From positions 32,746 to 96,745 of the forward strand of contig JAHEGU010000004.1 in NCBI GenBank assembly GCA_024644945.1: a DNA stretch of 64,000 bases. The letters run 5' to 3'. Origin of the DNA: Gammaproteobacteria bacterium. GTDB lineage: Bacteria; Pseudomonadota; Gammaproteobacteria; Arenicellales; Poriferihabitantaceae. Shown here one piece after another: positions 20,126 to 23,844 of this stretch (the stretch's first letter is position 1; each line of letters begins with the position of its first letter). The translations under genes and the position numbers were made by a program. Below the pieces are notes generated by a model, which worked only from the letters and a program-made list of their open reading frames with translations, made no database searches and was not told the DNA's origin.

Positions 20126-20153
20126 ATTGAAATTGTGGCGAAAGGCCGCATTG
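20126..20153 (+). promoter_or_regulatory. Sigma32-like heat-shock promoter of hslVU
   Basis: TTGAAA (20127-20132) is followed after exactly 13 bases by CCGCATTG (20146-20153). This fits the heat-shock sigma consensus (CTTGAAA, 13-15 bases, CCCCATnT) with few mismatches. It lies 27 bases before the hslV ATG, and hslVU is a classic sigma32 operon. RpoH itself is encoded three kilobases downstream. Confidence 0.65.
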
Positions 20154-20180: not shown

Positions 20181-20720
20181 ATGCAACAATATCGTGGTAC
20201 CACAATACTTTCTGTGCGCAAAGGCAACCAGGTTGTAGTTGGTGGAGATGGACAGGTCTCCCTGGGTGATACCGTCATGAAAGGAAATGCGCGCAAAGTA
20301 AGACGACTCTATCGAGAGCAGGTGCTGGCCGGATTTGCTGGGGGCACCGCTGACGCTTTTACCTTGTTTGAGCGTTTTGAAGGCAAGCTGGAAAAGCATC
20401 AGGGACAGCTGGTTCGGGCTGCAGTTGAGATGGCTAAGGACTGGAGGACCGATCGGATGTTGAGGCGCCTAGAGGCGTTGTTAGTGGTTGCAGATAAAGA
20501 GTCTTCATTGGTAATCAGTGGTAACGGTGATGTAATCGAGCCAGAAGAAGGCATTATGGCGATCGGTTCGGGGGGCAACTATGCCAAAGCCGCTGCCATG
20601 GCACTATGTGATAACACACAGCTGAACGCTCGGGAGGTGGTGGAAAAGTCCCTGTCTATTGCAGCCCAGATATGCATATATACAAACAGTAATCTGACTA
20701 TTGAGGAGCTCAATTTCTAG
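20181..20720 (+). CDS. hslV: ATP-dependent protease subunit HslV
   Basis: A 179-residue proteasome-beta-like peptidase. After removal of a six-residue propeptide (MQQYRG) the N-terminal threonine of [10 protein letters not shown] becomes the nucleophile; [24 protein letters not shown] is the family hallmark. Double hexamers of HslV pair with HslU rings to degrade misfolded and regulatory proteins such as SulA. AGGGGA lies eight bases before the ATG, and a sigma32-like promoter lies just upstream. The stop is one base from the hslU start, so expression is coupled. Confidence 0.97.
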
Positions 20721-20721
20721 A

Positions 20722-22047
20722 ATGAGCAACATGACCCCAAGAGAGATCGTTGAAGAACTCGATAACCACATCATCGGGCAGAAAGAAGCTAAACGGGCGG
20801 TAGCCATAGCCCTCAGAAACCGTTGGCGCCGAACTCAGGTTGAGCCAACACTGCGCGCTGAAATTACACCAAAAAACATTCTGATGATTGGTCCAACCGG
20901 GGTTGGAAAAACCGAGATATCAAGACGCCTTGCTAAATTGGCGCATGCGCCTTTTATCAAAGTTGAGGCGACTAAATTTACTGAAGTCGGTTACGTAGGT
21001 CGGGAGGTGGATTCGATTATTCGCGACCTGATGGATATGGCGGTAAAGCTGACCAGGGAAGAAGAAATGGAGAAGGTTAGACCCCGGGCAGAAGATGCGG
21101 CTGAGGAACAGGTGCTTGATCTTTTACTGCCGCCAGCAAGAGGTGATGAAACGGCCGCAAATGACGGAGCGGGAAGACAGCGATTCCGTAAAATGCTCAG
21201 GGAAGGTACATTGAATGACAAAGAGGTTGAAGTCGAAGTAAGTGCCACGGTCGCCGGAGTTGAAATATTTGCACCACCCGGAATGGAGGATATGACCAGC
21301 CAGTTGCAGGGAATGTTCCAAAACCTCGGCGGACAGAAAAAGAAAACCCGTAAAGTGAGAGTAAAGGAAGCACTAAAATTGCTTACCGAAGAAGAGGCGG
21401 CCAGACTGATCAATGACGATGATATCAAGCAATATGCTCTTGAGAGGGTTGAACAACACGGCATTGTTTTTCTCGACGAAATCGACAAAATAGTCAGCCG
21501 CAGTGCTGGTGGTACTGGCGGTGCAGATGTGTCTAGAGAAGGCGTACAGAGAGATTTGTTGCCGCTGGTAGAGGGTGCAACAGTGTCAACCAAGTTTGGA
21601 ATGGTCAAAACTGATCACATATTATTTATTGCGTCGGGCGCATTTCAGCTTTCCAAACCCTCCGACTTGATTCCTGAGTTGCAGGGAAGGCTGCCAATTA
21701 GAGTGGAACTTAGGGCACTTTCAAGCGAGGACTTTGTGAGAATACTGACGGAACCGGACGCGTCATTGACCGAACAGTATCAAGCACTGCTCGGAACCGA
21801 GGGGGTATCGCTCAAATTCACTGAAGAAGGGGTTGAGCGAATTGCTGAAGTGGCCTGGCAGGTGAATGAGAGCACTGAAAATATTGGAGCCCGGCGACTG
21901 CACACGGTGATGGAAAGGTTGCTTGAAACGATTTCATTCGAGGCCGCTGATCGCAGTAACCAGGATGTTGTGGTTGATGTCGAATATGTAGACAGACATC
22001 TTAAAGATCTGGCTGAAGATCAGGATTTGTCGCGCTATATCCTCTAG
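20722..22047 (+). CDS. hslU: HslU ATPase subunit of the HslUV protease
   Basis: A 441-residue AAA+ unfoldase. Walker A is GPTGVGKT (57-64); Walker B is [11 protein letters not shown]; the central I domain (about 110-230) precedes it; the C-terminal domain ends in LSRYIL, the tail that inserts into HslV. The reading frame is open from 20701, but homology starts at [14 protein letters not shown], so I use the ATG at 20722, with GAGGAG inside the hslV end as the likely ribosome site. It forms the hexameric ring that feeds substrates to HslV. Confidence 0.97.
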
Positions 22048-22077
22048 GCGCGGTAAATGCATCCCTAAAATTTGATT

Positions 22078-22815
22078 ATGTGGAATCTGGTAGCCATGGT
22101 CCGTGTGTTGCTGGCTCTGCCAGTGATCGCGTTCGGCTTGTTGGTCAGTCCCTTTATCGGGTTAATGTCTGCAAACGTCTTCTCGAACATAGCAAGAACT
22201 TGGTACCGCAGTTTGTTGACGATAATAGGCGTTCGCTGCAGGTTTAGCGGGGAGAGCATTGGAGAGGTAACGCTGGTAGTAAGCAACCATATTTCCTGGG
22301 CAGATATTCTTGTAATCGGTGTTCATTGGCCCTTTGTGTTTTTGGCAATGAAGGACGTTGCCAGCTGGCCCATTTTAGGCTGGCTCGCGAGGCGGGCCGG
22401 TACCCTGTTTATTGAGCGAGGTAGTGGTGCGCATCATGCGATCGAAGAGGTATCAAAGGTTTTGGCATCCGGGCGTCACGTCGTTTTATTTCCTGAAGGG
22501 AAGACCACCACTGGCACAACTGTGAGGCGATTCCACTCCCGCATCTTTCAGGCTGCTGTGGAGGCAGAAGTTGCGGTGCAGCCCATCGGTATTTTTTATC
22601 ACGATTCCGGTCAACCGAGACAGCATGGCAGCCGAATCACATTTGCTGATGAGTCGGGTCTGGTTGCTAGTGTATGGCGAACATTGGCGGGACCTCCTGT
22701 CAACGCAGAAGTGCGCGTTTTTGAACCCATTGGCCCCCATACAGACCGCGACCACCTGGCCACGATGGCTCACGGTCGAGTCCGCGATCATGTTGAGTTC
22801 ACGCTGAATTCATAA
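22078..22815 (+). CDS. 1-acyl-sn-glycerol-3-phosphate acyltransferase family protein
   Basis: A 245-residue PlsC-type acyltransferase with an N-terminal membrane helix (about 5-30). The catalytic HX4D motif is His71 to Asp76 in NHISWAD, and FPEGKTTTG is the conserved substrate-binding block. Such enzymes add an acyl chain to lysophosphatidic acid or related lipids at the inner membrane. A TTG six bases earlier (22072) is a possible start; I prefer the ATG. It follows hslU by 30 bases on the same strand. Whether it is the main PlsC of the cell or a paralogue such as an ornithine-lipid or lysophospholipid enzyme cannot be told here. Confidence 0.88.
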   Translation: MWNLVAMVRVLLALPVIAFGLLVSPFIGLMSANVFSNIARTWYRSLLTIIGVRCRFSGESIGEVTLVVSNHISWADILVIGVHWPFVFLAMKDVASWPILGWLARRAGTLFIERGSGAHHAIEEVSKVLASGRHVVLFPEGKTTTGTTVRRFHSRIFQAAVEAEVAVQPIGIFYHDSGQPRQHGSRITFADESGLVASVWRTLAGPPVNAEVRVFEPIGPHTDRDHLATMAHGRVRDHVEFTLNS

Positions 22816-22922
22816 CAAGTAGGTTAACATACATCAAATTCAGCGAAAGTTCGATGAAAGTGTTACTAAAATCTGCTTACGTGCAGCAAAAATCATCGTA
22901 TTTGTTTGAACTTATATGCTGA

Positions 22923-22949
22923 TTAGCACTCTTACAGCTAGAGTGCTAA
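22923..22949 (+). promoter_or_regulatory. CIRCE operator (HrcA site) upstream of rpoH
   Basis: TTAGCACTC-N9-GAGTGCTAA is a perfect match to the CIRCE element, the binding site of the heat-shock repressor HrcA, with the exact nine-base spacer (22932-22940). It ends 31 bases before the rpoH start codon, where a repressor would block transcription. CIRCE normally sits before groESL or dnaK. hrcA is not in the window. Confidence 0.93.
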
Positions 22950-22980
22950 AATCGATTAAATTGTTGAGGAGATGACCAGA

Positions 22981-23844
22981 ATGACAGAAAGGCTACCGAT
23001 CCCCGTAAACGTTTCCGCAAGTGATAACCTGAGTGGTTATATCAGTGCTGTCAACGCGGCACCAATTCTTAGTGCCGAGCGCGAGAGGGAGCTTGCGGTT
23101 CGATATCATGATGAGGGGGACCTTGAAGCGGCTCGGGAACTGGTAATGTCCCATTTGAGGCACGTTGTGAAGGTTGCCCGGGGTTTTATGGGATATGGAT
23201 TACCGTTGACTGATCTGATTCAGGAGGGAAGTATTGGACTGATGAAAGCGGTTAAACGATTCGACGCCAGCCGCGACGTAAGGCTCGTGTCATTTGCGGT
23301 ACATTGGATTCGGGCTGAAATTTACGACTATGTGCTCCGCAACTGGCGCATGGTTAAGGTGGCAACTACCAAATCTCAACGCAAACTATTCTTCAACTTG
23401 CGAAAATCTCGCGCCAGACTTGGCTGGATGCAAGATTCGGAGGTTGAGCAGCTTGCGAAAAATCTAAATGTAGAATCCGATACCGTCCGGGAGATGGAAT
23501 CCCGACTTAGTGGAACAGATGTTTCATTTGATGCAACTTTTGAACAGGATGAGGACGACACTGGTTACCTCGCACCGTCTGAGCATCTTGGAGACAACCG
23601 ATTTGATCCTGCGTTGGTAGTTAGCCGCTCCGAACAGACTGATTTGCGCGAATCTCAGTTGGCGATGGCGCTCGAAGAGCTCGATGCGCGCAGCAAGGAC
23701 ATCGTGCTCAGGCGCTGGCTAGGGGATGAAAAACCGACGCTTCATGAATTAGCAGATGAGTATGGCGTTTCCGCAGAACGAATTCGTCAGATTGAAAAGC
23801 GAGCAATGGAAAAAATGCGGACATTGATTGAGGTCGACGCGTAA
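22981..23844 (+). CDS. rpoH: RNA polymerase heat-shock sigma factor sigma32
   Basis: A 287-residue group-3 sigma factor. Region 2 (about 50-120) includes LIQEGSIGLMKAVKRFD; the RpoH box QRKLFFNLR (133-141), unique to sigma32, follows; region 4 carries the helix-turn-helix LHELADEYGVSAERIRQIEKRAM. It directs RNA polymerase to chaperone and protease genes, probably including hslVU nearby. An ATG at 22972 is in frame, but GAGGAG directly abuts it and is nine bases from the ATG at 22981, so the later start fits. A perfect CIRCE operator lies upstream and a strong terminator downstream. Confidence 0.96.
   Translation: MTERLPIPVNVSASDNLSGYISAVNAAPILSAERERELAVRYHDEGDLEAARELVMSHLRHVVKVARGFMGYGLPLTDLIQEGSIGLMKAVKRFDASRDVRLVSFAVHWIRAEIYDYVLRNWRMVKVATTKSQRKLFFNLRKSRARLGWMQDSEVEQLAKNLNVESDTVREMESRLSGTDVSFDATFEQDEDDTGYLAPSEHLGDNRFDPALVVSRSEQTDLRESQLAMALEELDARSKDIVLRRWLGDEKPTLHELADEYGVSAERIRQIEKRAMEKMRTLIEVDA

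Follow-up and report, generated by a model that had tools for sequence, protein, structure and literature searches.

An exact CIRCE operator overlaps predicted sigmaE- and sigma70-type promoters of rpoH in a gammaproteobacterium

The rpoH locus

The window, by which we mean the whole stretch of DNA that was analysed (64 kb), carries rpoH, the gene for sigma32, downstream of hslV, hslU and an acyltransferase gene. A CIRCE operator lies between the acyltransferase gene and rpoH, and the elements of two predicted promoters overlap it. The features are as follows.

about 20127-20151, + strand: sigma32-like promoter TTGAAA-N13-CCGCAT before hslV, read by eye
20181..20720, + strand: hslV, heat-shock protease subunit
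20701..22047, + strand: hslU (TIGR00390, 692 bits)
22072..22815, + strand: acyltransferase (PlsC-like), between hslVU and rpoH
22907..22913, + strand: predicted sigmaE (RpoE)-type -35 element TGAACTT, part of the octamer TTGAACTT (starting at 22906), which E. coli rpoH P3 shares
22923..22949, + strand: CIRCE operator (predicted HrcA site), TTAGCACTC-TTACAGCTA-GAGTGCTAA, exact match
22923..22952, + strand: predicted sigma70-type promoter TTAGCA-N18-TAAAAT with a TG-extended -10, formed by both CIRCE arms and the AAT that follows
22930..22934, + strand: predicted sigmaE-type -10 element TCTTA, 16 bp after the -35, the spacing of E. coli rpoH P3
22981..23844, + strand: rpoH (sigma32; TIGR02392 rpoH_proteo, 381 bits, cut-off 323)

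The sequence at 22923-22949 is TTAGCACTCTTACAGCTAGAGTGCTAA. It matches CIRCE with 0 mismatches (18 of 18 arm bases), and the exact HrcA palindrome TTAGCACTC-N9-GAGTGCTAA claimed in a preliminary description of this DNA is confirmed. No second match at up to 3 mismatches occurs in the 64 kb. The chance expectation at this threshold, estimated from dinucleotide shuffles, is 0.02, which rules out a chance palindrome.

The rpoH gene is single-copy in the genome; a paralogue or a misannotation was ruled out because only one gene scores over the TIGR02392 cut-off. Two in-frame ATG codons are available. The Shine-Dalgarno sequence GAGGAG (22966-22971) is better spaced for the ATG at 22981, and the alternative ATG at 22972 falls directly on it. 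The distance of 31 bases between operator and rpoH given previously is correct for the ATG at 22981, which is the likely start.

The listed open reading frame of hslU overlaps hslV, and its true start is probably slightly downstream. No terminator-like site was found between plsC and rpoH. Given this and the sigma32-like promoter before hslV, read-through into rpoH is possible. The latter promoter (20127-20151) lies three genes upstream of rpoH, and such read-through might provide positive feedback onto rpoH.

HrcA and CIRCE sites in the genome

The genome assembly comprises 3.79 Mb in 152 contigs and is 92.6% complete. The proposed HrcA control depends on the presence of hrcA elsewhere in the genome, and one copy of the gene was found. 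Its product scores 217 bits over the HrcA C-terminal domain, likewise contains the winged helix-turn-helix domain HrcA_DNA-bdg, and is related to the solved Thermotoga-type HrcA (1stz). With both domains present, a missing or broken hrcA was ruled out. The gene adjoins one that reads as NAD kinase. The list of all CIRCE sites, proposed earlier as a check, comes to exactly two in the 3.79 Mb assembly at up to 3 mismatches, one upstream of rpoH and one upstream of groESL. The predicted HrcA regulon therefore consists of groESL and rpoH.

Conservation of the operator

We aligned the window with 80 rpoH loci of other genomes, which gave 59 alignable rpoH-linked CIRCEs. CIRCE is conserved in most of the 80 loci. 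Among the 59 aligned sites is that of Xanthomonas pisi, in which the left arm is degenerate. Within the family to which the window belongs, CIRCE sites were found in 24 of the 24 genomes searched, and rpoH CIRCEs were confirmed in many of these genomes, including relatives from the same genus. Neither an rpoH CIRCE nor an hrcA match was found in the sampled loci and genomes of Vibrio, Photobacterium, Halomonas, Legionella, Francisellaceae and Methylophaga. An rpoH CIRCE was also not found in some relatives that do carry hrcA, namely Nitrococcus, Thioploca and Thiomargarita.

A predicted sigmaE-type promoter fused with the operator

The -35 element of sigmaE is GGAACTT. In the window, 22906-22934 reads TTGAACTT-ATATGCTGATTAGCAC-TCTTA. 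The -35 element (TGAACTT) ends 9 bp upstream of CIRCE, and the -10 element (TCTTA) is composed of the last two bases of the left CIRCE arm and the first three bases of the loop. Each is one base off consensus. When tested against an rpoH P3-type pattern (GGAACTT as -35, TCNNA as -10, spacer of 16), the window fits with one mismatch in the -35. The P3 promoter of E. coli rpoH is an established RpoE promoter (PMC8103513). The region upstream of E. coli rpoH reads TTGAACTT-GTGGATAAAATCACGG-TCTGA, with an N16 spacer and without CIRCE. Upstream of rpoH, then, stands TTGAACTT-N16-TCTGA in E. coli and TTGAACTT-N16-TCTTA in the window. RpoE itself is encoded in the genome of the window (TIGR02939, 282 bits), and rseA and rseB adjoin rpoE (RseA_N and MucB_RseB domains).

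In the aligned rpoH sites, GGAACTT is conserved at a fixed distance of 9-10 bp upstream of CIRCE. The third loop base, A, is conserved as well, and the -10 is typically TCTAA or TCCAA. We compared dereplicated CIRCEs from 74 rpoH loci with those from 37 groES loci, which served as the control, and 13 hrcA loci. A GGAACTT-like -35 (up to 2 mismatches) at 9-10 bp is present at 58 of the 74 rpoH sites, against 0 of the 37 groES sites (p 4e-17) and 0 of the 13 hrcA sites; 22% of the rpoH CIRCEs have no sigmaE -35 at this distance. The third loop A, which completes the -10, was found in 52/74 rpoH sites versus 0/37 groES sites. The N9 loop of the rpoH CIRCE is therefore not free, but carries a promoter element.

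The sigmaE promoter with its 16-bp spacing is retained in five rpoH loci that lack CIRCE, two of them from Nitrococcus. The two elements are thus separable. Nitrococcus has hrcA and the sigmaE-type rpoH promoter; the rpoH CIRCE is missing, but groES and hrcA keep their HrcA sites.

A likely sigma70-type promoter

The CIRCE arms also contain the hexamers of a likely second promoter of the sigma70 type, of which we are less sure than of the sigmaE one. In sequence, TTAGCA-N18-TAAAAT has 9 of 12 consensus matches (TTGACA / TGnTATAAT) with the TG present, and shuffled sequences contain a mean of 0.6 such sites. The extended -10 with TG is TGCTAAAAT (22944-22952). The -35, TTAGCA, matches the consensus at 4 of 6 positions; its sequence is dictated by CIRCE, and it reads TTGGCA in about a quarter of the rpoH sites. 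A blind promoter scan of 22600-23000 returned the TTAGCA/TAAAAT pair as the sole sigma70-type site, although a single site of this kind is no rarity in shuffled sequences. The sixth base of the -10 lies outside the operator, at +3 after CIRCE. A T at this position turns the right arm into TGC-TAAAAT, an extended sigma70 -10, and is found in 69 of 74 rpoH sites, compared to 12 of 37 groES sites.

The composite site follows hrcA

A composite pattern (GGAACTT-N9-CIRCE-NNT, up to 3 mismatches) was searched for in 276 genomes drawn evenly from the Gammaproteobacteria. It occurs in 117 of these genomes and in 94 of 216 genera. As a control, the pattern was reversed; in this form it occurs in 0 of the 276. 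We fetched 30 of the composite loci, and rpoH adjoins the composite in 29. The remaining match (3 mismatches) is not beside rpoH, looks like background and was rejected as an rpoH site. The gene hrcA is present in 116 of the 117 composite-bearing genomes, and the composite is absent from 70 of the 71 genomes lacking hrcA (Fisher p 2.7e-19; the genomes are related by descent, so that this value overstates their independence).

These comparisons bear on another explanation, which takes the site for an HrcA operator and nothing more, with the sigmaE and sigma70 features secondary or due to chance. Transcripts of rpoH would then start at another promoter or run on from hslVU-plsC, and bound HrcA would be a roadblock. 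The absence of a terminator-like site between plsC and rpoH and the sigma32-like promoter before hslV are in keeping with the read-through part. However, GGAACTT at a fixed spacing before most of the rpoH sites and none of the groES sites, the conserved -10 bases in the loop and the empty reversed control argue against a plain operator. We consider this explanation unlikely.

Alishewanella agri, an alteromonad, has a weaker hrcA match (138 bits), and the exact CIRCE at its rpoH is the only site found in the genome. The sampled Vibrio and Photobacterium loci have neither; hrcA and the rpoH CIRCE could be a lateral gain in A. agri.

An operator variant shared by rpoH and groES

In Xanthomonadaceae, the rpoH operator is TTAGCAGTC-N9-GACTGCTAA, with CAGTC/GACTG arms. 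The same C-to-G change is seen in the groES operators of this family, in many cases in one arm. A variant common to both operators fits one protein reading both. In three sequences of Xanthomonadaceae HrcA, the DNA-binding domain has SQTLA or SKTLA and TIRNIL in place of SRTLS and TIRNVM. Judged from these sequences, it is possible that repressor and operator changed together. At a Competibacteraceae locus, the rpoH site has symmetric CAGTC/GACTG arms, the arms at groES and hrcA are canonical, and HrcA keeps SRTLS/TIRNVM. The operator variant can thus arise without a change in the repressor.

The variant also bears on an RNA-level reading, in which the inverted repeat forms a hairpin or thermometer in the mRNA and thereby controls the translation or stability of rpoH. 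The full repeat does fold well (-17.5 kcal/mol, z -2.85). However, transcripts from either of the predicted (not mapped) start points, near 22939-22942 for sigmaE and near 22958-22960 for sigma70, lack the left arm and fold no better than shuffled sequences (z about +0.9), which makes an RNA hairpin very unlikely. Also against it, the presence of the site tracks hrcA, and the operator letters themselves are conserved rather than pairing alone, with the variant letters common to groES. That the site is a relic through which HrcA no longer regulates rpoH here is highly improbable: although the site is evidently dispensable, as some hrcA-bearing lineages lack an rpoH CIRCE, its 18/18 arm match, the CIRCEs in all 24 family genomes, the confirmed rpoH sites in genus relatives and its absence from nearly all hrcA-less genomes speak against decay.

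Proposed control of rpoH

On the sequence evidence, it is quite probable that 22923-22949 functions as an HrcA operator and forms part of the rpoH promoter region with its sigmaE- and sigma70-type elements. Both predicted promoters overlap the operator; bound HrcA would therefore lie across the -10 element and the start of the sigmaE promoter as well as both sigma70 hexamers. HrcA stays active only with GroEL, and sigmaE answers envelope stress. Our best reading is that sigmaE and sigma70 would drive transcription of rpoH and that HrcA, hence the supply of GroEL, would gate it. We infer HrcA binding, repression, the link to GroEL and the logic of the gate from the known HrcA, sigmaE and sigma70 families.

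With plentiful GroEL, HrcA would be active and would block both rpoH promoters, and both rpoH and groESL would be low. Once GroEL is taken up by unfolded protein, HrcA would lose activity, and rpoH and groESL would be released. Envelope stress, acting through sigmaE under RseA/RseB control, would add to rpoH transcription only within the limit set by HrcA.

The preliminary description had placed HrcA above sigma32. As a prediction this is well supported, in view of the hrcA gene, the groESL operator, the conservation of the site, the co-occurrence in 116 of 117 genomes and the variant shared in Xanthomonadaceae. It does not hold for HrcA alone, as sigmaE and sigma70 would add layers of activation. 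The contrast drawn there with E. coli, in which a control search gave no HrcA match, is incomplete: the operator here lies on top of a sigmaE-type promoter that corresponds to P3 of E. coli rpoH.

The three-input module of sigmaE, sigma70 and HrcA operator may be ancestral for gammaproteobacterial rpoH. E. coli, Vibrio and others would then be derived, having kept only the sigmaE promoter after the loss of hrcA. We put this forward tentatively, at slightly less than even weight. If true, sigma32 could rise under envelope stress only if GroEL ran short at the same time. The textbook account of sigma32 control derives from E. coli, which is without HrcA. If HrcA acts at rpoH, a repressor that senses the chaperonin gates both sigma32 and its envelope-stress input, and control by translation and proteolysis of the E. 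coli type may not be the general rule.

Comparison with known systems

A CIRCE before rpoH is not unprecedented. Rodionov et al. 2004 reported an exact CIRCE upstream of rpoH in Geobacter sulfurreducens (PMC545781, Table 8). As listed there, TTAGCACTC-N9-GAGTGCTAA lies at -51 of rpoH, and groESL is also under CIRCE, as in the genome studied here. The differences are that G. sulfurreducens is a Deltaproteobacterium and that hrcA-grpE-dnaKJ is under CIRCE as well (PMC545781). The rpoH site is a prediction listed for one studied genome, and the pertinent part of that report describes no overlapping sigmaE promoter (PMC545781).

In Agrobacterium, sigma32 and HrcA also both control heat-shock genes in one cell (cited in PMC11764788). 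Going by the title of Nakahigashi et al. 1999, as cited in PMC11764788, RpoH and HrcA act differentially and independently there, whereas in the present genome rpoH itself is a predicted target of HrcA. Control of groESL by CIRCE and HrcA uses the same operator and repressor as the rpoH site. At groES, however, CIRCE comes after the -35 and -10 elements (TTGATTT...CACTAT type), at the likely start point, whereas the rpoH CIRCE itself contains promoter elements.

HrcA goes unmentioned in a 2016 paper on regulons in Proteobacteria. The presence of CIRCE before rpoH was already known; its fusion with a sigmaE promoter may be new. No description of such a fusion in Gammaproteobacteria was found in the open-access literature searched, which did not extend to Permina and Gelfand 2003, said to be the likeliest place for earlier gammaproteobacterial reports. 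Ueki and Lovley 2007 is reportedly a paper on Geobacter RpoH.

E. coli strain S1 (NZ_CP010226) has an atypical rpoH copy flanked by a DUF4231 gene, downstream of which it lies, and an encapsulin shell gene. As this is not a standard rpoH locus, the copy was set aside for the P3 comparison and another E. coli record was used. Copies of rpoH occur on plasmids too.
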